Shown here piece by piece: positions 45,436 through 59,892 of a stretch of DNA of 64,000 nucleotides; positions within the stretch are counted from its first letter, which is position 1, and every line of letters begins with the position of its first letter. This DNA comes from Actinotalea subterranea. Its GTDB lineage: Bacteria; Actinomycetota; Actinomycetes; Actinomycetales; Cellulomonadaceae. Both the position numbers and the translations under genes were made by a program. Location of the stretch: positions 62,001 to 126,000 of the forward strand of contig NZ_VTTP01000007.1 in the NCBI RefSeq assembly GCF_008364845.1, in the 5' to 3' direction. A model generated the notes under the pieces. It saw only the letters and a list, made by a program, of their open reading frames with translations. It ran no database searches and was not told the origin of the DNA.

Positions 45436-46263
45436 TCAGAAGGGGCGGAGCAGCCGGTGCAGGAACTGGCGGGTGCGTTCCTCCCGCGGCGCACGCAGCA
45501 CCTGCTCGGGCGGCCCGTGCTCAACGATCACGCCGCCGTCGACGAACGCCACCTCGTCCGCGACCTCGCGGGCGAAGTGGAGCTCGTGGGTGACGACGAC
45601 CATGGTCCAGCCCTCGTCGGCCAGCTCCTTGATGAGCGCGAGGACGTCCCCGACGAGCTCGGGGTCGAGCGCTGACGTCGGCTCGTCGAAGAGGAGCAGG
45701 TCCGGCCGCAGGGCGAGCGCTCGCACGATGCCGACGCGCTGCTGCTGGCCGCCGGAGAGCTCGAACGGGTACGCGTCGCGCTTGTCCGCGAGGCCGACGC
45801 GCTCGAGCATCGCGAGCGCCTCTGCCGTCGCCTCGGCGACCGGGCGGCGCTGGACGACCACGGGTCCCTCGAGCACGTTCTCGAGGACGGTCATGTGCGG
45901 AAAGAGGTTGTAGTGCTGGAAGACCATCGCGGACCGGTCGCGCAGCGACGCGAGACCCGCGCGCGAGGGCGCGGCGGCGAGGTCGATGCTGACGGCGTGC
46001 TCGGTCCCGACGATGCCGATGGTGCCGGCGTCGCCGACCTCGAGGCCGTTGAGGCAGCGGAGCACCGTGGTCTTGCCGGACCCGGACTGTCCGATGAGCG
46101 CGAGCACCTGCCCGCGCCCGACGGTGAGGTCGACCGAGCGCAGCACCTCGTTCGCCCCGAAGGTCTTGCGCAGGCCGCGCACGGTCAGCAGCGGGACGCC
46201 CTGCCCGACGGCACCCACGCCGTCGGCCGGGCGCGGTGGCTCGAGCGGGTCAGTGGGCGACAT
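45436..46263 (-). CDS. Polar amino-acid (cystine-type) ABC importer, ATPase
   Basis: A 275-residue ATPase of the GlnQ/TcyN type. Walker [11 protein letters not shown]-loop [18 protein letters not shown], signature [14 protein letters not shown], Walker [13 protein letters not shown] and switch His [11 protein letters not shown] are all intact. The sequence after Walker A ([15 protein letters not shown]) and an extra loop resemble cystine importers. It overlaps the permease by 14 nt. Uptake of cystine is inferred from the leader peptide and family similarity. Confidence 0.9.
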
Positions 46264-46927
46264 GACGGTCCAATCGCTTCTCGAGGCGGCTCTGCACCGC
46301 TGACAGCCCGAGGCAGATGATCCAGTAGACGACCGCAGCCTCGAGGTAGACGGCCATGAACTCCTGGCTGAACGCTGCGACCTCCTGAGCCCGCCGGAAC
46401 AGCTCGGTGACGAGGATGAGCGAGGCCAGCGACGTGTCCTTGACGAGGCTGATGAAGGTGTTCGACAGGGGTGGGACGGAGACCCGGGCCGCCTGCGGCA
46501 GGATGACGCGGCGCAGGGCGAGCCGGCGCGACATGCCGATCATGTACGCGGCCTCCCACTGGCCCTTCGGCACGGAGAGGATCGCCGCGCGGATCACCTC
46601 CGCGGCGTAGCCGCCGACGTTGATGGAGAAGGCGATCACCGCGCTCGGCCACGGGTCGACGAGGATGCCGACCGAGGGCAGCCCGTAGAAGATCACGAAG
46701 AGCTGCACCAGCAGCGGCGTGCCCCGGACCACGGACACGTACGCGCGCGCGAGGCCGGACAGCCAGCCCCTACGCGACAGCCGCATCAGAGCGACGCCGA
46801 GGGCGATCACGAGGCCGACGGCGAACGAGACGAGCGCGAGCGGGATGGTCCCGGCGACCGCCCCGAGCGCGACGGGCCCGAGCGCCTCGACGAGGAGGTC
46901 CCACGTGGAGCCGGACGTCACCGGCAC
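46250..46927 (-). CDS. Amino-acid ABC importer, permease
   Basis: 225 residues of the HisM/GlnP-type permease family, with about five membrane segments. Motifs are [22 protein letters not shown] and the cytoplasmic EAA loop [21 protein letters not shown], which contacts the ATPase. GTG start at 46927. It is 61 nt downstream of the substrate-binding gene. Confidence 0.92.
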
Positions 46928-46988
46928 GCCCCGCGCGCGTGGACCGGCCCCGAGGGTGCGAGGTGGGGCTCTCCGGCGCCGTGACGGG

Positions 46989-47828
46989 TCATCGCGTGAC
47001 GTCCTCGCCGAAGTACTTCTCGGAGATCTCGGCGAGGGTGCCGTCGGCGGCCAACGTCGCGAGGGCGTCGTCGACGGCGTCCGCGAGCGTGCTGCTCCCG
47101 CGGGCGAAGGCGAAGGCGCTGCGTGACTCCTCGTCGGTCTCGGCGGCGACGCGGAGCCCCGAGGCGTCGTTCGTCGTCGCGTAGTCGAGGTAGGTCAGCT
47201 TGTCGTTGATCGTCGCGTCGACGCGGCCCTGCTCGACGAGCGCCACGGACTGCGCCCAGCCCTCGACGGCCTCGATCGTGGCCCCGCTGTCCTTGGCCAG
47301 CGTCATCCAGTTGCTCGTCAGGGACTGTGCGGTCCGCTTGCCCGCGAGGTCGTCGAACGAGGAGATCGAGTCGTCGTCGGCGGCCACGACGATCACGCCC
47401 GTCGAGTACGTGTAGGGCTCGGAGAAGGTGTAGGCCTCCTCGCGCTCGGGGGTGATCGAGACCTGGTTGGCGATGACGTCGAACCGGCCCGCGTCGAGGC
47501 CCGCGAAGATCGCGTCCCACTGCGTCTCCTCGAACTCGACCTCGACACCCAGCTCGGTGGCGACGGCTGTGACGACCTCGACGTCGAACCCCGTCAGCCC
47601 GCCGGTGCCGTCCTCGTGGAACGAGAACGGCCGGTAGGTGCCCTCGGTGCCGACGGTCAGGGTCCCGGCGTCGAGAACCGCCTGGAGCGAGTCGTCGCCC
47701 GCGTCGCCGGCGGTCGCGGCGGTGGACCCCGGGGCAGCGTCGTCGGCCGGCGAGGAGCAGGCGGCGAGCGTCAGGGCCAGCGCGGTCGCGGCGAGTGCGG
47801 GACGGGCGAGGCGGGCGCGGTGCGTCAT
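46989..47828 (-). CDS. Amino-acid (cystine-type) ABC importer, substrate-binding lipoprotein
   Basis: A 279-residue extracytoplasmic receptor of the polar amino-acid class. The signal peptide ends in lipobox LAAC. Conserved features are [42 protein letters not shown] and [24 protein letters not shown] 47828 has a GAAGGAAG site. The first gene of this three-gene reverse operon, it is preceded by the Cys-Cys leader peptide. Cystine as ligand is an inference. Confidence 0.92.
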
Positions 47829-47904
47829 GGGGCTTCCTTCGGACGGGACGGGCGGACGACGGTCGTACCGGGGCGTCCGGGTCAGGTGGCGGTGCGGTCG
47901 AGCA

Positions 47905-47922
47905 GCCGACCTGCGGGTCGGC
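47905..47922 (-). promoter_or_regulatory. Leader hairpin between Cys-Cys peptide and importer
   Basis: A perfect 7-bp stem GCCGACC/GGTCGGC with a 4-nt loop lies 85 nt after the leader peptide stop and 77 nt before the importer start. It could serve as part of an attenuation switch. No T-run is present. Confidence 0.4.
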
Positions 47923-48006
47923 GGTGGCACGGCGGGGCTGCGACGGCACCTCGTCGTGCGCCGTGGGCGGCGGTCCGTGCGATGGCGGCGCGTGCGCGCC
48001 GCAGGC

Positions 48007-48090
48007 TCAGCGGCCGAGCGGGAGGCGCCGACAGCACGCCCGGCGGGGGGCGCGCTGCGGACCCGTCGCGGACGTGAGGTGAGCGGACAT
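48007..48090 (-). CDS. Cys-Cys leader peptide, putative regulatory uORF for cystine uptake
   Basis: 27 residues beginning MSAHLTSATG and ending RRACCRRLPLGR. Two adjacent Cys codons (19 and 20) near the C-terminus within an Arg-rich context resemble actinobacterial leader peptides upstream of sulfur genes, where ribosome stalling at Cys codons reports cysteine shortage. It lies 178 nt upstream of the importer start, in the 430-nt gap 47829-48258 which contains no other gene. No strong ribosome-binding site, so it may be leaderless. Confidence 0.55.
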   Translation of the reverse strand: MSAHLTSATGPQRAPRRACCRRLPLGR

Positions 48091-48258
48091 GCGGCGATTC
48101 GACCACAGGTCGCCGTCGATGTCATCCCAGGTCCACGCCCCGTGCGTGGTCCCGGCCACCCAGCTCTGAGGTGTGGGTGCATGGTGCGGCCGGCGCCCGA
48201 TGAGTTCGAGCGACCCGCGAGGTCTACCCCGTCGACCGACTCGACCGCGGAGGTTCCG

Positions 48259-51161: not shown

Positions 51162-51728
51162 ATGAGCCCTCCGCCGAGCGCACCCGACCGGGAGCAGGTC
51201 TTCCGATCGTTGTACGGGGCGCTGTACCCGGACCTCCTGAGGTTCGCGCAGCGCCGCGTGGACGCCGACCAGGCGGAGGACGTCGTCGCCGAGGCGTTCC
51301 TCGTCCTCTGGCGGCGGCTCGCGGACCTGCCCCGCCGTGAGGAGGACGTGCGGGCGTGGGCTTTCGGCATCACGCGCAACGTCCTGCTCAACAGCAGGCG
51401 GAGCGAGCTGCGTCGCCACGCGCTCGGTGTGCGCCTCGCGGAGCCGACAGCCGTGCACGACGGCGATGCCGATGCCGACGGCGTCGTGAGCGCGGTCGAC
51501 CTCGCCGTCGCGTGGCGCCGGCTCTCGGAGACGCACCAGGAGGCGATCGCGCTGACCGCGTTCGAGGAGCTGAGCGCACCACACGCCGCCGCCGTGCTCG
51601 GCATCTCCCCGGTCGCCTTCAGGCTGCGGCTCAGCCGTGCCCGCCGGGCGCTCCGGCTCCACCTCGACCACCGTCCGTCGGGCCCGCGCGCTGCGGCCCC
51701 CGTCCCGGAGAGGACCGCGACACGATGA
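51162..51728 (+). CDS. ECF-type RNA polymerase sigma factor
   Basis: 188 residues with sigma-70 region 2 (LYPDLLRFAQRRVDADQAED, AFLVLWRRLADLPR) and region 4 (LSETHQEAIALTAFEELSAP, VLGISPVAFRLRLSRARRAL). Region 3 is missing, as in the extracytoplasmic-function group. ATG 51162. The stop overlaps the next gene by 4 nt, so the following membrane protein is the likely partner. Target promoters are unknown. Confidence 0.9.
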   Translation: MSPPPSAPDREQVFRSLYGALYPDLLRFAQRRVDADQAEDVVAEAFLVLWRRLADLPRREEDVRAWAFGITRNVLLNSRRSELRRHALGVRLAEPTAVHDGDADADGVVSAVDLAVAWRRLSETHQEAIALTAFEELSAPHAAAVLGISPVAFRLRLSRARRALRLHLDHRPSGPRAAAPVPERTATR

Positions 51729-52567
51729 ACACGCTCGACGACGCCGCCTCGACGACGCTGCGCAGGCTCGACCCGGCCGACCGACAGGTGCACCCGGGTG
51801 CCCGTGCGGCGGCGGATCTCGAGGCGATCCTCAGCTCCCCACTCGGGTCCCCCTGCCCACCGGCCGCTCGCGCGCGCGGTCGCACCGGTCGACGGCGTCC
51901 GGGCGTGCCCGCACGGCGGCTCGTCGTCGTCGGTGGTCTGGCGGCTGCAGCGGCGCTCGGCCTGGTGCTGCTCGAGCCGCTCGCAGGCGGTGATCCGGCG
52001 TTCGCGACCTGGACCGGGGTGCCGTCCGGGCTCTCTGCGACGGAGGAGGCGGCAGCCGTCGTCGAGTGCCGCGACAGCTCGGCGGAGGCGGCCCAGGGCG
52101 ACGACCCGTTCGCCGACCGCCTCGCGTCCGGCCTGCGTACGGCCACACCGGTCGTGGTCGAGCGGCGGGGTGCGTGGACCACTGTCGTGCTCGCCGGTGC
52201 GGACGGGTTCTCCGCCCTGTGCATCACGGACGACTCCGCCCCACCGTTCGCCGGCGCGATGATCGGCGCGCTCGGGACGCCCGACGGGTTCGTCGAGCCC
52301 CAGCCGCGTGAGGTCCGGGCCTCGTCGCTCGGCATGGGAGCGACCGGCGGGGGAGAGGTCTCCGTCGCCGTCGGCGTCGCGGGGTCCGACGTCGTCGCGG
52401 TCGTCTACCGGAGCCGCGTGCACGGTGACGTGAGCGCGACCGTCAACCACGGGCACTTCGCGCTCTGGCTGCCGGGGGACGAGCTGACGGACGCGTCCAG
52501 CCAGGGCGTGGACGTCGAGGTGACCTACCGCGACGGCGCGACCGCGACGGCGCGGCTCACGCTCTGA
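51725..52567 (+). CDS. Membrane protein partner of ECF sigma factor (possible anti-sigma factor)
   Basis: 280 residues. The N-terminal 65 residues are cytoplasmic and Arg-rich, followed by one membrane segment (about 67-84, LVVVGGLAAAAALGLVLL) and an outer domain of about 195 residues. The topology suits an anti-sigma factor, and the ATGA overlap with the sigma gene supports it. No zinc-binding ZAS motif (HxxxCxxC) is seen, so this is inference. The outer domain has two Cys residues (VVECRDSS and ALCITDDS). Confidence 0.65.
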   Translation: MNTLDDAASTTLRRLDPADRQVHPGARAAADLEAILSSPLGSPCPPAARARGRTGRRRPGVPARRLVVVGGLAAAAALGLVLLEPLAGGDPAFATWTGVPSGLSATEEAAAVVECRDSSAEAAQGDDPFADRLASGLRTATPVVVERRGAWTTVVLAGADGFSALCITDDSAPPFAGAMIGALGTPDGFVEPQPREVRASSLGMGATGGGEVSVAVGVAGSDVVAVVYRSRVHGDVSATVNHGHFALWLPGDELTDASSQGVDVEVTYRDGATATARLTL

Positions 52568-52591
52568 GCCGTCGCGGTCGTCCGTCGGCCG

Positions 52592-52771
52592 CTAGGCCTC
52601 CGTCTCGACGATCGCCGCCCCGTCCGCGGCACGCTGCACGGCCTCGCAGCCCCGCTTCGCACCGTCCTTGGACGCGTAGGCCTCGCCGCTCGCGACCGTC
52701 TCGCCGTTCCCTGCCTTGAGGCGCCAACGGAACTCGGCGCCACTGGGGTACACCTCGAACTTGCCCGCCAT
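52592..52771 (-). CDS. YegP-like (DUF1508) small protein
   Basis: 59 residues: MAGKFEVYPSGAEFRWRLKA followed by GNGETVASGEAYASKDGAKRG. This is the single-repeat form of the DUF1508 family, which forms a beta-rich fold; members have no defined reaction. ATG 52771 has a GGAGGT site. It converges on the sigma/partner operon. Confidence 0.88.
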   Translation of the reverse strand: MAGKFEVYPSGAEFRWRLKAGNGETVASGEAYASKDGAKRGCEAVQRAADGAAIVETEA

Positions 52772-52996
52772 CGGGACCTCCGTGTGCTCGTCGTCGAGCG
52801 ACCTGGTGCCCCGAGCGTAGACCCGGCGGGTGCGGGAGGACCATGCCCGTGTGCTCGCCGTGCGGGTGCGACCGGAACGTGTCCCGCGGCCCGACCCCGG
52901 GCGTTCACCCTCGTGTGAGAACATCCGCGGCGCCTGGCCCTGGAGGGTCACCACGGCGGATGCCCGCGTTTCAGCCGGGCGGGAACGAGACGAACG

Positions 52997-55900
52997 GTGA
53001 CGAACGCACGACCTGCGACGAGCCTGCTGCGTGCCGGGACGCGGGCGCCCGCCGCACGGACCCTCGTCGACGTCTTCGAGGAGACGGTGCGCCGGCACCC
53101 GCTGGCGGTCGCGATCGACGACGGCGACGAGGTCCTGACCTACGCGGCGCTCGACGAGGCCGTGAGGCTGCGTGCGACGAGGCTCGCGGCGGCGGGGGTG
53201 CGGCGCGGCGACCGGGTCGGCGTCCGCGTCGCCTCAGGGACGGTGGACCTGTACCTGTCGATCCTTGCGGTCCTGCGAGCGGGCGCGGCGTACGTCCCCG
53301 TCGACGCCGACGACCCCGACGAGCGTGCCAGGCAGATCTTCGACGAGGCGGGCGTCCGGGTCGTCATGGGTGACGCGTTCGCGCTCACCGGTCCCGCCGG
53401 GGAGCCGGTCGTGCCGACGGACGGGGCCCTGACCGTCGACCACGTGCCGGCCGTCACGGACGACGCGTGGGTCATCTTCACGTCGGGCTCCACGGGACGG
53501 CCCAAGGGCGTCGCGGTGTCGCACCGCAACGCCGCCGCGTTCGTCGACGCGGAGGCCCGCCTCTTCCTCCAGCGCGCGCCGATCGGTCCCGGCGACCGGG
53601 TCCTCGGGGGCCTCTCCGTCGCGTTCGACGCGTCGTGCGAGGAGATGTGGCTCGCGTGGCGGTACGGGGCGACCCTCGTCCCGGCGCCGCGTTCGCTCGT
53701 GCGGGCCGGCACCGAGCTCGGCCCGTGGCTCGTCGAACGGGAGATCACCGTGGTCTCCACCGTCCCCACGCTCGCGGGCCTGTGGCCGGTCGAGACCCTC
53801 GCGGGCCTGCGCCTGCTGATCTTCGGCGGCGAGGCGGTCCCCCCGGAGCTCGCCGAGCGCCTGGTCCACCCCGGGCGGGAGGTGTGGAACACCTATGGGC
53901 CCACGGAGGCCACCGTCGTCGCCTGCGCCGCGCTCCTCGAGCCGGGGCAGCCCGTGCGCATCGGGTTCCCGCTCGACGGCTGGGACCTCGCGGTCGTCGG
54001 GCCGGACGGCGCCGAGGTCGAGCCCGGCGCGATCGGCGAGCTGGTCATCGGTGGCGTCGGCGTCGCCCGCTACCTCGACCCGGCGCTGGACGCCGCCCGG
54101 TTCGCCGCCATGCCCGGTCTCGGCTGGGACCGCGCCTACCGCACCGGTGACCTCGTCGAGCGGCACGACGACGGGCTCGTCTTCGTCGGGCGGGCCGACG
54201 ACCAGGTCAAGGTCAACGGGCACCGCATCGAGCTCGGCGAGGTCGATGCCGCACTGCTGGCCCTGCCCGGCATCGTCGGTGCCGCGGCCGCGGTCCGGCG
54301 CACACCGGCCGGCACCGCGCTGCTCGTGGGGTACGTGGTGCCCGGGGACGCCGCGCCCGTGCAGACCGCGTCGCTGCTCGCCCTGCTGCGCGAGACCCTG
54401 CCGGGGTCGATGCTGCCGCTGCTCGCCGTCGTCGAGGAGATCCCGACCCGCACGTCCGGCAAGGTCGACCGCGACGCGCTGCCCTGGCCGGTACCCGGCT
54501 CCGACGCCCCGGCGGACGGAGCGCGCCTGACGGGCACCACCGCGTGGGTGGGCGAGCAGTGGGTGGCCGTGATCGGCGCGCACCCCGACGGTCCCGAGGA
54601 CGACTTCTTCCTGCGCGGCGGCAGCTCGTTGACGGCCGCGCAGCTCGTGTCCGCGCTCCGCACGCGCTACCCGGAGGCGACCGTCGCGGACGTCTACGAC
54701 CATCCCGAGGTCGGGGACCTGGCGGCCTACCTGGACGCGACGTGGCCTCAGGCCGGCGGCGAGCCCCCTCCGCCCACCCCCGGCCCAGCGGTGCGGCCGG
54801 TCGGCGTCGCCAGCCAGGTCGCGCAGGTGGCGGCGCTGATCCCGCTCCGCACCCTCGTGGGCCTGCGCTGGCTGACCGCGCTCGCGGCCGTCAACGTCGT
54901 GCTGCACGCCCTCGTGCCGATCGCGTGGCTACGACCGGTCTCGGGGTGGTGGGTGCTCGCCGGGTGGCTGCTCACGGTCAGCCCGGTCGGACGCATGGGC
55001 GTGACCGCGCTCGGTGCCCGGCTCCTGCTTCTGGGTGTGCGCCCCGGCGACCACCCCCGCGGCGGTGCGGTGCACCTGCGGCTGTGGGCAGCCGAGCGCC
55101 TCACCGAGTCGTTCGGGGCGATCACGCCGGCGACGGCGACCTGGGTCTGGCTCTACGCCCGCGCTCTCGGTGTGCGGATGGGGCGCGACGTCGACCTCCA
55201 CTCGGTGCCGCCGGTGACCGGCATGCTCACGCTCGGCGACGGGTGCGCGATCGAGCCCGAGGTCGAGCTCTCGGGCCACTGGGTCGACGGCGACGTGGTG
55301 CACGTCGGCCGGATCACCGTCGGCGCGGGGGCGACCGTCGGCGCGCGCAGCGTCCTGTACCCGGGCGCGCACGTCGGTGACGGCACGGACGTCGCCGCAG
55401 GGTCGGCCGTGCACGGTCGCACGGGTGCGGGGGAGTACTGGGCGGGCTCGCCCGCCGCCCGCGTCCACGAGGCGCGCCACCCCTGGCCGGCCGAGCGACC
55501 GACGCCCCGTGGCCGGGCGGCCCGGTGGGTCGTCGCCTACGGCCTCGTCGGCGCCGTGGTCGCGGCGCTGCCCGTGATCGCGGTGACGGCAGGGCTCGCC
55601 GTCGTCGCCCTCGCGGTGCGGCACACGACGAGCCTCGCCGACGCGGTCGCGCCGGCCCTGCTCGCGGGGCTTCCGGCCGCCGTCGCCGCCGCGACGCTGT
55701 ACGCCGGGCTCGTCGTCGGGTGCGTCCGGCTGCTCGGGCTGGGTCTCGACGAGGGGTACCACCCCGTCAGGTCCCGTCAGGGCCTTCAGGCCTGGGCGAC
55801 TGAGCGGCTCATGGATGCCGCCCGCACGATCCTGTTCCCGCTGTACTCGTCGGTGGTGACCCCGGTCTGGATGCGCCTGCTGGGCGCCGAGGTGGGCCGC

Positions 55901-56920
55901 GGCACCGAGATCTCGACCGTGATCGGGCTGCCCGGCATGATGCGGCTCCGCGACGGCGCGTTCCTCGCGGACGACACGATGGTGGCGCCCTACGAGCTCG
56001 GCGGCGGCTGGGTCCGGATCGCCGTGGCCAAGGTCGGCCGGCGCGCGTTCGTCGGCAACTCGGGCATGACGGCGCCCGGGCGCACGGTTCCGAAGAACGG
56101 GCTGGTCGCGGTCCTGTCGGCGACCCCCCGGCGCACGCGGGCGGGGTCGAGCTACCTCGGCAGCCCGCCCGTCCTGCTCCCGCGCGCAGCGACGCTCGAC
56201 GACCCCGCACGGACGTACGACCCGCCCACGCGCCTGCGGCTCGCCCGCGCCCTCGTCGAGCTCGGCCGCGTCGCCCCTGCCCTGACGCTGAGCACCCTGG
56301 GCCTGGGCACGCTCCTGACCTTCCAGGCCGTCGTCCTCGAGGTCGGCTGGGGCGGCGCGGTCCTGCTGGGCGGGCTCGTCCTGGTGGCGACGGGTCTGGT
56401 CGCCGCGGTGGTGACCGTCGTCGCGAAGTGGCTGCTGGTCGGCCGCCACCGGGCGGGCGACCACCCGCTGTGGAGCTCGGCCGTGTGGCGCGGCGAGGTC
56501 GCCGACACCTTCACGGAGATGGTCGCGGCCCCGCTCTTCGCGGACCCCGCCACCGGTACTGTCGCGCTGGTGTGGTGGCTGCGGGGACTCGGGGCGCGGA
56601 TCGGGCGCGGGGTGTGGTGCCAGTCCTACTGGTTGCCGGAGCCCGACCTGGTCAGTCTCGGCGACGGCGCGACGGTCGGCGCCGGCTGCGTCGTGCAGAC
56701 CCACCTGTTCCACGACCGCGTCATGAGCCTGGACACCGTGGTCATGGACGCCGGCGCGACGCTGGGCCCGCACGGCGTGATCCTCCCGGCCGCGAGGCTC
56801 GGGGCCGGGACGAGCGTCGGCCCCGCCTCCTTGGTGCTGCGCGGCGAGCACGTCCCGGCGGGGACCCGATGGGTCGGCAACCCCATCGCGCCCTGGCGCA
56901 CCGCGCGGGTCGACGCGTGA
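52997..56920 (+). CDS. Pls/PosA-type membrane NRPS, predicted lysine homopolymer synthetase
   Basis: 1,307 residues, close to known poly-lysine synthetases in length and layout. The adenylation domain (about 20-495) has TSGSTGRPKGVAVSHRN, NTYGPTEATVV and Lys489 in RTSGKVDRDAL. By aligning to the GrsA pattern I read specificity positions as Asp211, Ala212, Glu215, Ser254, Ile275, Gly277, Thr299, Val307, matching the remembered lysine code D-A-E-S-I-G-S-V in seven of eight. A carrier domain follows (FFLRGGSSLTAAQ, Ser544). Then three pairs of membrane segments (about 620-670, 840-915, 1090-1145) alternate with three soluble domains with hexapeptide-like repeats. No condensation or thioesterase domain occurs. 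GTG overlap with the M1 gene. Confidence 0.85.
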   Translation: MTNARPATSLLRAGTRAPAARTLVDVFEETVRRHPLAVAIDDGDEVLTYAALDEAVRLRATRLAAAGVRRGDRVGVRVASGTVDLYLSILAVLRAGAAYVPVDADDPDERARQIFDEAGVRVVMGDAFALTGPAGEPVVPTDGALTVDHVPAVTDDAWVIFTSGSTGRPKGVAVSHRNAAAFVDAEARLFLQRAPIGPGDRVLGGLSVAFDASCEEMWLAWRYGATLVPAPRSLVRAGTELGPWLVEREITVVSTVPTLAGLWPVETLAGLRLLIFGGEAVPPELAERLVHPGREVWNTYGPTEATVVACAALLEPGQPVRIGFPLDGWDLAVVGPDGAEVEPGAIGELVIGGVGVARYLDPALDAARFAAMPGLGWDRAYRTGDLVERHDDGLVFVGRADDQVKVNGHRIELGEVDAALLALPGIVGAAAAVRRTPAGTALLVGYVVPGDAAPVQTASLLALLRETLPGSMLPLLAVVEEIPTRTSGKVDRDALPWPVPGSDAPADGARLTGTTAWVGEQWVAVIGAHPDGPEDDFFLRGGSSLTAAQLVSALRTRYPEATVADVYDHPEVGDLAAYLDATWPQAGGEPPPPTPGPAVRPVGVASQVAQVAALIPLRTLVGLRWLTALAAVNVVLHALVPIAWLRPVSGWWVLAGWLLTVSPVGRMGVTALGARLLLLGVRPGDHPRGGAVHLRLWAAERLTESFGAITPATATWVWLYARALGVRMGRDVDLHSVPPVTGMLTLGDGCAIEPEVELSGHWVDGDVVHVGRITVGAGATVGARSVLYPGAHVGDGTDVAAGSAVHGRTGAGEYWAGSPAARVHEARHPWPAERPTPRGRAARWVVAYGLVGAVVAALPVIAVTAGLAVVALAVRHTTSLADAVAPALLAGLPAAVAAATLYAGLVVGCVRLLGLGLDEGYHPVRSRQGLQAWATERLMDAARTILFPLYSSVVTPVWMRLLGAEVGRGTEISTVIGLPGMMRLRDGAFLADDTMVAPYELGGGWVRIAVAKVGRRAFVGNSGMTAPGRTVPKNGLVAVLSATPRRTRAGSSYLGSPPVLLPRAATLDDPARTYDPPTRLRLARALVELGRVAPALTLSTLGLGTLLTFQAVVLEVGWGGAVLLGGLVLVATGLVAAVVTVVAKWLLVGRHRAGDHPLWSSAVWRGEVADTFTEMVAAPLFADPATGTVALVWWLRGLGARIGRGVWCQSYWLPEPDLVSLGDGATVGAGCVVQTHLFHDRVMSLDTVVMDAGATLGPHGVILPAARLGAGTSVGPASLVLRGEHVPAGTRWVGNPIAPWRTARVDA

Positions 56921-58272
56921 AGGCCGCCGCGCGCGACCCGTACGACACGGCCCACGGCGACAGGTCCACGCACGTCGTGCACTACGACCTCGACCTCACG
57001 TACCGGCCCGTCAGCAACCGGCTCCAGGGCACCGCCACGCTCGACGTCGTCACGCTCGAGCCGACCAGGGCCGTCGTGCTCGACCTCGTCGGTCTCGCGG
57101 TCGCCAAGGTCACGGTGAGCGGGGCACCGCAGGGCAGGTACGACCATGACCGTGGGCGGCTGAGGATCCGGCTCGCGCGCGAGGTCGCCGCAGGGACGCG
57201 CCTGACGGTCACGGTCCGCTACGGCGGGAGCCCCGGGCCGACCCCGAGCCCGTGGGGGCCGGTCGGCTGGGAGGAGCTCGAGGACGGCGTGGTCGTCGCG
57301 AGCCAGCCCACGGGTGCGCCCACGTGGTTCCCGTGCAACGACCGGCCGGACGACAAGGCGACCTACCGGACGTCCCTGACCGTGGACAACCCCTACCGCG
57401 CGCTCGCGCACGGGGTGCTCGTGGATCGGCGCACCAAGGCGAGCGCGACGACCTGGGTGTACGACGAGACCCACCCGACCTCGCCGTACCTCGCGACGGT
57501 CCAGATCGGTCGGTACGACGAGGTCGTCCTGGCCGACGAGCCGGTTCCGCAGCGGGCGCTCGTCCCCACCCCGCTCGTCGCGGCCGCCCGACGCCGGCTC
57601 GCCGACCACGGTGCGCTGATGGCGTACTTCTGCGAGACGTTCGGGCCCTACCCCTTCGCGGGGTACACGGTGGTGTGCACACCGGACGAGCTCGAGATCC
57701 CGCTCGAGGCCCAGGGCGTCTCCATCTTCGGCGCGAACAACCTCCAGGCCACGGGGGGCGAGGAACGACTCGTCGCGCACGAGCTCGCGCACCAGTGGTT
57801 CGGGAACAGCGTCTCGGTGAGCTCGTGGCAGCACATCTGGCTCAACGAGGGCTTCGCCTGCTACGCGGAGTGGCTCTGGTCCGAGGCGTCGGGCGGGCCA
57901 CGAGCCGACGCCGTCGCCCGCGGGTGGCACGCACGGCTGGCCGCGTCGCCGCAGGACCTGGTGCTCGCCGACCCCGGCTACCCACGCATCTTCGACGACC
58001 GCATCTACAAGCGCGGCGCGCTGACCCTGCACGCCGTGCGCACCGTCCTCGGTGATCCCGTCTTCTTCGACCTCGTGCGCGCGTGGACGACGTCGTTCGC
58101 CCACCTGACGGCGGGCACGCAGGACTTCCGTGACCTGGTCGCCGCGCACGCGCACGCTGCCGGGGGACAGCCGTTGGCGCTGAGCGCCGGTGCGGTCCTG
58201 AGTGCGTGGCTCGACGAGCCGGGCCTGCCGCCGTACCCCGGTCACGTCGCCGCCCCGTCCCGGGCGCGCTGA
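56917..58272 (+). CDS. M1-family zinc aminopeptidase
   Basis: 451 residues from GTG 56917 (4-nt overlap with the synthetase). The zinc site is HELAHQWFGN (His288, Glu289, His292) with Glu311 in WLNEGFACY, the M1 HEXXH-18-E spacing. The exopeptidase motif usually GxMEN reads LEAQG. An N-terminal beta domain (about 15-190) and a shortened helical C-terminus make it smaller than most M1 enzymes (about 850 residues). No signal peptide. The tight coupling suggests a role with the synthetase, such as trimming or protection, which is inference. Confidence 0.9.
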   Translation: MKAAARDPYDTAHGDRSTHVVHYDLDLTYRPVSNRLQGTATLDVVTLEPTRAVVLDLVGLAVAKVTVSGAPQGRYDHDRGRLRIRLAREVAAGTRLTVTVRYGGSPGPTPSPWGPVGWEELEDGVVVASQPTGAPTWFPCNDRPDDKATYRTSLTVDNPYRALAHGVLVDRRTKASATTWVYDETHPTSPYLATVQIGRYDEVVLADEPVPQRALVPTPLVAAARRRLADHGALMAYFCETFGPYPFAGYTVVCTPDELEIPLEAQGVSIFGANNLQATGGEERLVAHELAHQWFGNSVSVSSWQHIWLNEGFACYAEWLWSEASGGPRADAVARGWHARLAASPQDLVLADPGYPRIFDDRIYKRGALTLHAVRTVLGDPVFFDLVRAWTTSFAHLTAGTQDFRDLVAAHAHAAGGQPLALSAGAVLSAWLDEPGLPPYPGHVAAPSRAR

Positions 58273-58279
58273 CCGGGCG

Positions 58280-59026
58280 TCACCGCGCCGTCGCGGCGAC
58301 GACCTCCAGGACCGCGCCCCCGTCGTGCAGCACGACGTCGACGGCTCCTGGCCGTGATGCGCGCACCGACCCGGCGGCCACCGAGACCGCGATCGCACCG
58401 ACGACCGTTCGTCCCAGGCGCAGGTCCACGACGTGAGCGAGGAGGTCGCCGGTCCCTCCGGGATCGCTCGCGTGCGCGAGGGCCGCACGAACGTCCACCG
58501 TTGCGGGATCCATGCGCAGACCCGTTCTCCACGCCTTGAGCGCGGCCTCCTTGCGCACCCAGGCGCGCGTCAGCTCCGCCGAGCGCCGGTCCAGGGGCAG
58601 CCGGGCCAGCGAGCGCCGCTCCGCGTCCGACAGCGCGACGTCGGCCACCGGCGCCCGTGCCACCCGGGCGTGGGACTCCACGTCGATGCCGACCGGACCG
58701 GTGGCGCTGAGCACCACGGCCAGCACCGGTCCCGACCGCGTCGCGCTCACGTGCAGCCCAGGTCCGTCCGTCGGCGGCCCTTCGACCTCGATCGGCCCGT
58801 GAGGCCCGCCGCAGCCGGGGCAGCGTGCCTGGAGGCCGACGGCGCCGGCCGGCACCCCGAGCCGGGCACCGACCACCGCCCGAAGCAGAGCCCTGGCCCG
58901 CACGAAGCCCACCTGGGCGGAGGGTGGCATCGCGTCCGCACGCGCGCGCTCCGCAGGGTCGAGCACCGGCAGCAGGCGGGCGACGTCCGTGCCGGTCGAC
59001 GCGGTCGCCCAGACCTCGACCGTCAC
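58280..59026 (-). CDS. 4'-phosphopantetheinyl transferase
   Basis: 248 residues of the Sfp-type superfamily. GTG 59026 (adjacent GTG 59029 possible). Signatures VGIDVESHARVARAP (GxDxE) and WVRKEAALKAWRTGL (WxxKEA) carry the magnesium- and CoA-binding residues. It transfers the phosphopantetheine arm of CoA to carrier-domain serines. It converges on the M1 gene (7-nt gap), so it is the natural activator of the carrier domain at Ser544 of the synthetase. Confidence 0.92.
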   Translation of the reverse strand: MTVEVWATASTGTDVARLLPVLDPAERARADAMPPSAQVGFVRARALLRAVVGARLGVPAGAVGLQARCPGCGGPHGPIEVEGPPTDGPGLHVSATRSGPVLAVVLSATGPVGIDVESHARVARAPVADVALSDAERRSLARLPLDRRSAELTRAWVRKEAALKAWRTGLRMDPATVDVRAALAHASDPGGTGDLLAHVVDLRLGRTVVGAIAVSVAAGSVRASRPGAVDVVLHDGGAVLEVVAATAR

Positions 59027-59177
59027 CACCTCGCCCGCACCCCGCACACGATCATTCTGACGGGCACGGGCATGTGCCCCGCTCCGCGCGCTCCCCGGCG
59101 TTCGCGCCTGCTGGCTGACACGTATGCGTGGCCGTCCGCTTCCGGGCTCAGCACAGCTGTCAGGAGAGGGCTGCATC

Positions 59178-59767
59178 GTGGATGCCCATGAACGGGCGGA
59201 GATGCTCGAGGCCCTCAGCGACGGCATGCACGCGGTCGGCCGCCATCGGCGCACCACCTACTGGAACGCCGCAGCCGCGCGGATCACGGGCTACACGGCC
59301 GAGGAGGCGGTGGGGCGGTCCTGCGGGGACGGCCTGCTCAACCGCAGTGGGCCCGGGACGGGCGGCGCTTCGGCGTCGTCATGCTGGACCTCGACCGCTT
59401 CAAGGACGTCAACGACCTCCACGGGCACGACGTCGGCGACACCGTGCTCCAGGTGACGGCGCGCAGCCTGCGCGGGGCGGTCCGGGCCGACGACGAGGTC
59501 TGCCGCTTCGGAGGCGACGAGTTCGCGGTGGTGACCGCGCAGGCGAACTGGGCAGAGCTCGCCGGCCTGGTGCAGCGTCTCCACATGGTCGTCGCGCAGA
59601 GCCGGTTCACCGGCTCAGACGGGCGACCTCTGGACATCACGGCGTCGGCCGGTGCCGCGCTGGTGCTGGCGGGGGAGGACGCCGCAGCCCTGGTGCGACG
59701 TGCCGACCAGCGCCTGCTGCAGGCCAAGCACGAGGGTCGCAACCGGACCCTGGTCCTTCCCGACTGA
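59178..59767 (+). pseudogene. Broken PAS-GGDEF diguanylate cyclase
   Basis: GTG 59178 (site CAGGAGAGG) opens VDAHERAEMLEALSDGMHAV and a partial PAS domain (WNAAAARITGYTAEEAVGRS), which breaks off at about 59343. From about 59348 the other frame continues with the end of a GGDEF domain (WARDGRRFGVVMLDLDRFKD; CRFGGDEFAVV), to TGA 59767. The end of PAS and the start of GGDEF are lost, with a frameshift. A single intact protein is not possible without frameshifting. The GGDEF motif itself remains intact. Confidence 0.75.
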
Positions 59768-59818
59768 CCTGGGGCCACGGCTCGTCGGCACGTCGGATCT
59801 CCGGAGAGATCACAGGCG

Positions 59819-59892
59819 TGCCCCGAGTGGGATTCGAACCCACACTGGATCGGGTTTGAGCCGAACGCCTCTGCCGGTTGGGCTATCGGGGC
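59819..59892 (-). tRNA. tRNA with CAA anticodon (Leu), short variable loop
   Basis: Reads on the reverse strand GCCCCGATAGCCC..., with a 7-bp acceptor stem GCCCCGA/TCGGGGC, discriminator A at 59819, Leu-like D arm (3-bp GCC/GGC stem, 11-nt loop), anticodon loop CTCAAAC giving CAA, and T arm GTGGG/CCCAC with TTCGAATC. The variable region is only 5 nt (CCAGT), whereas Leu tRNAs normally have a long arm. The first anticodon-stem pair is T-T. CCA is not encoded. It may be atypical or a pseudo-tRNA. Confidence 0.75.

Follow-up and report, generated by a model that had tools for sequence, protein, structure and literature searches.

What would a bacterium of the Cellulomonadaceae build with a synthetase that consists of an adenylation domain, a thiolation domain and a long membrane-spanning part, that is followed directly by a peptidase gene and that is faced by the gene of a phosphopantetheinyl transferase (PPTase)? 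This question is raised by a three-gene locus of Actinotalea subterranea, located at positions 52997-59026 of a 64,000-nucleotide (nt) stretch of contig NZ_VTTP01000007.1 (positions 62,001 to 126,000 of the forward strand, assembly GCF_008364845.1), which we refer to as the window. An original prediction, made from the sequence alone, had proposed a make-activate-trim cassette for poly-lysine, the epsilon-linked form of which is a natural antimicrobial polymer. As set out below, the reading best supported by sequence and predicted structure is that of a poly-lysine-type synthetase with a coupled degradase and an adjoining activating enzyme, and we consider it highly probable that the locus is orthologous to the pls-pldII operon and has an activator gene beside it, that is, a set predicted to build and degrade epsilon-poly-lysine. 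It is a well-supported, essentially expected Cellulomonas-type example of an already known system, to which it makes two small additions, the linkage to a PPTase gene in Micrococcales and a degradase without a leader. The arrangement itself is not new, because pls and pldII of Streptomyces albulus have been published as one operon with a 4-nt overlap (PMC4361855). The locus comprises the following features:

52997..56920, plus strand: pls-like gene for a Pls/PosA-family synthetase of 1,307 residues with the plan A-T-(TM-C)x3 (A, adenylation; T, thiolation; TM, transmembrane segments; C, soluble acetyltransferase-like domains; from TIGR02353 and 7wew)
53075..54481, plus strand: adenylation domain, approximately residues 27-495, with the pocket DAESIGTVVK (PF00501, alignment to 7wew)
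54545..54733, plus strand: thiolation (carrier) domain, residues 517-579 (PF00550)
54809..56887, plus strand: membrane region and three left-handed beta-helix (hexapeptide acyltransferase-like) domains (TIGR02353 residues 608-1297, structural model, Foldseek)
56917..56920, plus strand: GTGA, the 4-nt stop/start overlap of the pls-like gene and the M1 gene (from the sequence)
56917..58272, plus strand: pldII-like gene for a leaderless two-domain M1 zinc aminopeptidase of 451 residues (PF01433/PF17900, structural model)
58280..59026, minus strand: gene for an Sfp-type 4'-phosphopantetheinyl transferase of 248 residues, from GTG at 59026 (PF01648)

These coordinates and the anatomy of the three genes are as originally proposed, with the pls-like and M1 genes in tandem and the PPTase gene converging on them; none of the three is interrupted, and the active-site motifs of the products are intact. 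The domain plan, the pocket, the coupling of the first two genes, the zinc site and the uniqueness of the PPTase in its genome can be read off directly, while the functions that we attribute to the A. subterranea copy are to be understood as predicted.

The synthetase matches the NCBIfam model TIGR02353 ('Pls/PosA family NRPS'; NRPS, non-ribosomal peptide synthetase) with 666 bits, against a cut-off of 423.1. Its Pfam matches include AMP-binding (PF00501), PP-binding (PF00550) and Hexapep, and none of the five found at E<=0.001 belongs to a condensation or thioesterase family. In the thiolation domain, S544 is invariant across a 14-row alignment and probably represents the serine to which phosphopantetheine is attached. 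Hydropathy reveals three hydrophobic blocks, at about residues 620-648, 841-917 and 1095-1150, and these coincide with the helical blocks between which an AlphaFold model of the C-terminal 703 residues (36 alignment rows; predicted local distance difference test score, pLDDT, 88.3; predicted template modelling score 0.88) places three beta-helical soluble parts. In Foldseek searches, parts of this model match CysE, maltose O-acetyltransferase and other hexapeptide acyltransferases, with E 5.5e-5 at best. Domain matches, hydropathy, model and fold comparison thus agree with the predicted A-T unit and its three membrane pairs alternating with three hexapeptide-like domains: six transmembrane segments alternate with three acetyltransferase-like domains, although the third pair appears in the model as a single 57-residue helical run. 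In an alignment of 42 C-terminal sequences that includes three far relatives with other specificity codes, H1236, within QTHLFHDR of the third soluble domain, is the sole histidine shared by every row, and it is on this account that we guess that catalysis may sit in the third soluble domain.

The substrate pocket speaks for lysine. The best match of the adenylation domain in the PDB is 7wew ('Epsilon-poly-L-lysine synthase'; E 3.3e-188, 631 bits), which we take to be the S. albulus enzyme. At the Stachelhaus positions, as defined for GrsA, the window protein reads DAESIGTVVK (D211, A212, E215, S254, I275, G277, T299, V307, V308 and K489) and is identical to 7wew at ten of ten positions, as judged by eye from the alignment columns. 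This is the kind of structure-based comparison that had been suggested for the locus, and it comes out in favour of a poly-lysine synthetase. Likewise, the residues D-A-E-S-I-G-T-V had been read correctly; the threonine, however, had been regarded as a departure from a lysine code DAESIGSV, presumably that of the bacitracin type, and this worry is resolved because 7wew carries threonine at the same position. The second pocket position has been proposed to set the chain length, with Phe in the synthetases of PDAP (poly-diaminopropionate) and PDAB (poly-diaminobutyrate), Met in PosA and Ala in Pls (PMC10522769); it is Ala in the window protein.

For a view of its relatives, we used the best 80 of at least 589 confirmed relatives as named genome loci, and 59 whole genomes of relatives, the window's own included. 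In a tree of 53 rows, none of them an experimentally confirmed synthetase, the window protein stands beside that of Cellulomonas telluris (81% identity), inside the Cellulomonadaceae. A branch with an SH-aLRT (Shimodaira-Hasegawa-like approximate likelihood ratio test) value of 100, the measure used instead of a bootstrap, separates the 49 rows with the lysine code from four rows with other codes, which are long branches. Thinning had left out L101 and 34 other loci, mostly of Mycobacteriales.

The second gene starts with GTG at 56917, so that its start overlaps the stop of the pls-like gene by the predicted 4 nt. Its product matches PF01433 (91 bits, cut-off 27.7) as well as the N-terminal M1 domain PF17900, and its zinc site is formed by HELAH(18)E together with Tyr364; HEXXH, Glu and Tyr are kept in all 38 aligned sequences. 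At what we take to be the position of the usual GAMEN motif it reads PLEAQGV, of which E264 is invariant across the 38 rows. The structural model (pLDDT 91.4) most closely resembles a Deinococcus radiodurans M1 peptidase with two domains (6a8z, 6koz), which is also the best sequence match (TM ~0.84, 30% identity); the C-terminal domain that large M1 enzymes possess is therefore missing from the window enzyme. The D. radiodurans protein is not known to be linked to a polymer synthetase.

The pairing of the two genes is widely conserved. Of the 80 named loci, 79 have an M1 gene downstream of pls in the same orientation, and the remaining one, L101, ends at a contig edge directly after pls. Among these 79, an in-frame ATG, GTG or TTG overlaps the pls stop by 4 nt in 49 loci, and 15 more have such a codon with a 1-nt overlap. 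At the level of whole genomes, 16 of 59 hold a Pls match that covers most of the protein with >=55% identity. M1 matches at E<1e-100 occur in those same 16, while the other 43 lack them; relaxing the threshold to E<=1e-30 raises the count to 20 of 59, the four additional matches being weaker. Counted among the 16 are G004, where Pls is split over contigs, and G026, where it comes in two adjoining pieces; G045, with a full-length Pls relative of 36% identity and a non-lysine code, is counted as lacking it. On plasmids, five of nine Pls-like loci (52-62% identity, flanks of 3-5 kb) carry the M1 gene (L108, L109, L114, L116 and L117). Overall, most of the actinobacterial loci that we looked at retain both genes of the pair. 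L110, L111 and L113, the three plasmid loci whose synthetases carry other codes, have no M1 gene in their flanks.

Where the degradase would act is a separate matter. The window enzyme has no export leader or N-terminal hydrophobic stretch, and just six residues precede its first conserved Asp. Two M1 copies from Streptomyces plasmids (L108 and L114) start with TRCSRRALLRGxALLPLAA, which looks Tat-like by eye, and no further leader acceptable by eye came out of a crude scan across 84 M1 loci, the starts being unsure in, for instance, L085. PldII of S. albulus is reported to lie outside the cell membrane (PMC9223678), so lineages may differ in where the enzyme is located. For the window enzyme, the lack of a leader suggests that degradation may be intracellular, and its expected site of action is the cell interior or the inner membrane face. 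Of the proposed make-activate-trim cassette, the making and activating parts are thus upheld for a poly-lysine-type polymer by the pocket, the conserved pair and the small number of PPTases in the genome, whereas trimming of secreted polymer seems less likely than degradation inside the cell. One might extend this to Micrococcales and most other carriers outside Streptomyces, in which a cytosolic M1 enzyme would sustain a cycle of building and recycling, with a cell-associated, stored or tightly metered polymer in place of a secreted antibiotic trimmed outside the cell, and with an activator of its own; we regard this generalization as speculative and rather unlikely.

The third gene converges on the M1 gene as described, with its stop at 58280 lying 7 nt past the M1 stop at 58272; its reading frame is open to 59257. 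The product matches PF01648 (ACPS) with 52.3 bits, against a cut-off of 25, and carries GIDVE and WVRKEAALKA (by eye), which presumably correspond to the Sfp-type motifs G-[IV]-D-[VI]-E and W-xx-KEA-xx-K. The window's own genome contains two PF01648 matches, this PPTase and a 117-residue AcpS, and two PF00550 matches, Pls and an 82-residue acyl carrier protein (ACP), the AcpS and the ACP being named by eye.

Judging from characterized relatives, the system might work as follows. The PPTase would load phosphopantetheine onto the carrier domain of Pls, and the A domain would adenylate L-lysine and then transfer it to this carrier. The three tandem, membrane-tethered hexapeptide-fold domains would join the lysines via the epsilon-amine, in the absence of condensation and thioesterase domains, and would release a product some tens of residues long across the membrane. 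The translationally coupled M1 enzyme would hydrolyse the isopeptide bonds and thereby limit damage or recycle lysine. It could conceivably cut internal as well as terminal bonds, because in epsilon-poly-lysine the alpha-amine next to the carbonyl stays free on every residue and because the enzyme lacks the C-terminal domain. The chemistry is known from work on S. albulus Pls and PldII (PMC8117764, PMC4361855, PMC9223678). It is also reported to have been described by Yamanaka in 2008 and 2010.

Several observations weigh against this account, and they have to be considered together with the alternatives that they favour. Within this family, synthetases whose pockets differ make different polymers (PMC10522769), and a lysine-like pocket could in principle serve for another cationic homopolymer, such as delta-poly-ornithine, poly-diaminobutyrate or poly-beta-lysine. 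Four of the 102 loci in our code census (80 named, 16 relative and 6 plasmid loci) have other codes, namely DFEYNGTVTK, DSECYGGVTK, DFEYLGTVTK and DMEHNGTVTK. DAESIGTVVK is found in 80 of 80 named, 15 of 16 relative and 3 of 6 plasmid loci, but the first of these counts is partly built in, because the patterns used to find relatives (ASCEEMW and [GTD]RE[VL]WNTY) contain three of the ten pocket residues (A212, E215 and T299); furthermore, the pocket has been compared with a single solved enzyme. Nevertheless, this enzyme is matched at every position, the known synthetases of other polymers have Met, Phe or Gly where the window protein has Ala (PMC10522769), and the tree sets the other codes apart, if only as long branches, so that we consider another product improbable. 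Nor is the coupling strict: the M1 frame does not open until 267-2,067 nt downstream of pls in L077, L085, L086 and L095, and M1 is absent within 3-5 kb of four of the nine plasmid pls genes (L112, L115, L118 and L119, from Rhodococcus opacus pROB01, Streptantibioticus cattleyicolor, Streptomyces viridifaciens and Mycobacterium intracellulare). A further point is that the M1 enzyme has no leader, whereas PldII of S. albulus is reported outside the membrane. The locus may also be silent or decaying, with intact but unexpressed genes, as cultures of Corynebacterium variabile itself yielded no detectable polymer, nor was its Pls protein detected (PMC8117764). In addition, pls is patchily distributed in the genus (5 of 19 genomes), and simple consensus scans of 52000-59500, confined to sigma-70-type promoters and terminators, found no promoter-like or terminator-like site, other promoter types being outside their scope. 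Yet the three reading frames are open and have intact active-site motifs, and two genomes of the same genus with a 76%-identical pls (G017 and G018) retain the M1 and PPTase genes as well; we deem this the least probable of the alternatives, and a very remote one.

A further alternative concerns the PPTase alone, which could be a bystander that works for other pathways and has come to lie beside pls and M1 by chance. Being on the other strand, it stands outside the pls-M1 operon. In searches with an iterated profile, which raised the count from the 12 loci found with a single sequence, 14 of the 80 named loci have a PPTase gene past M1 on the opposite strand, with gaps between the reading frames of -43 to 1,679 nt; these are 14 of the 17 Micrococcales loci (by tree label) and none of the other 63, which include two actinobacterial bins and several short flanks. 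The three Micrococcales loci whose stored flanks contain none, L028, L066 and the nearest relative of the window locus, L024, count against a fixed linkage; the genomes of L028 and L066 hold two PF01648 matches each. Among the 16 Pls genomes, the converging PPTase is adjacent or within ~1 kb in nine (G000, G002, G017, G018, G030, G033, G035, G036 and G046) and lies elsewhere in five (G025, G026, G041, G042 and G048); G004 and G023, in which it and M1 lie on separate contigs, are counted in neither group. A role in the pathway is favoured by the window's own genome, in which the only other carrier domain is the ACP and the only other PPTase is AcpS. It is also favoured by the genus, in which the PPTase is matched in five of five Pls genomes and in 2 of 14 others, and those two have other NRPS-like A-domain matches. 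More broadly, at least two PF01648 matches occur in 16 of 16 Pls genomes and in 11 of 43 others (hypergeometric p 1.2e-7, relatedness ignored). Mantel comparisons with Pls distances gave r 0.39 for the PPTase (p 0.0004, 15 loci), to which we attach little weight because two of the envelopes span only 34 and 50 residues and because relatedness is shared, and 0.88 for M1. On balance, a mere bystander appears unlikely, though less so than the two alternatives above, and an activator of Pls remains the preferred role. We found no report of a PPTase beside pls in the open-licence literature, and in the accessible part of the S. albulus genome paper PPTases come up in a Gene Ontology enrichment and not beside pls. 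A differently arranged linkage is seen on a Sphingomonas parapaucimobilis plasmid (L113:3698-8259), where a Pls/PosA gene with the ornithine-like code DMEHNGTVTK overlaps a PPTase gene on the same strand by 4 nt.

Compared with known systems, the window synthetase shares with S. albulus Pls the A-T-(TM-C)x3 plan, the lack of condensation and thioesterase domains and the ten-residue pocket. It comes, however, from a different actinobacterial order, its locus adds the converging PPTase, and its product is a predicted one. S. albulus PldII is likewise an M1-type aminopeptidase encoded directly downstream of pls with a 4-nt overlap, and it degrades epsilon-poly-lysine (PMC4361855, PMC9223678). Pls homologues have also been mapped in eight coryneform genera (PMC8117764). 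They share the lysine-type pocket, and the C. variabile enzyme yielded epsilon-poly-lysine when expressed in S. coelicolor; the accessible part of that article does not name Cellulomonas among the genera and mentions no linkage to a PPTase. Nor did we find a report of polylysine from Cellulomonas in the open-licence literature. PosA of Acinetobacter baumannii, which makes delta-poly-L-ornithine, belongs to the same family and has the same plan, but its pocket reads DMEHNGTVSK and its operon consists of a single gene (PMC10522769). Yet another code, DSECYGGVTK, is found in a synthetase on a plasmid of Streptomyces sp. NBC_00648 (L110:4935-8954) and has been reported for a Bdellovibrionales enzyme (PMC10522769).

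The surroundings of the three genes do not extend the cassette. Eleven neighbouring genes were compared (an extracytoplasmic function (ECF) sigma factor, its partner reading frame, amino-acid ATP-binding cassette (ABC) genes, an AI-2E transporter, DUF1508, GGDEF, ANTAR, a binding protein and a hypothetical protein), and eight of them have no match at E<=1e-8 in the 80 named and 6 plasmid loci. The other matches are scattered (ABC ATPase in 9 loci, ANTAR in 4, AI-2E in 1), and the idea of a wider conserved cluster was dropped for this reason. The comparison covered reading frames of >=80 residues, so that the 59-residue DUF1508 gene (52592-52771, minus strand), located between the ECF pair and pls, was hardly tested by it. 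The ECF sigma factor gene (51162-51728, plus strand) overlaps a 280-residue reading frame (51725-52567, plus strand) that has no Pfam match and is anti-sigma-like by position only; neither has a matching reading frame in any of the 80 named loci. The genes of a polar amino-acid-type ABC importer (family 3 binding protein, permease and ATPase; 45436-48182, minus strand), for which no conserved link to pls was found across the compared loci, lie about 5 kb upstream of pls, and a tRNA-Leu (CAA) gene (59818-59892, minus strand) lies past the PPTase gene.

Given these results, the locus would extend the pls-pldII operon to a Cellulomonas-type host. Nearly every sampled genome locus with pls also has the M1 partner, which supports the notion of a conserved pair that builds and degrades the polymer. 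The linkage to a PPTase in Micrococcales may offer a compact three-gene set for the heterologous production of epsilon-poly-lysine, and the fact that degradases occur with and without a leader opens the site and the purpose of polymer breakdown to direct testing.

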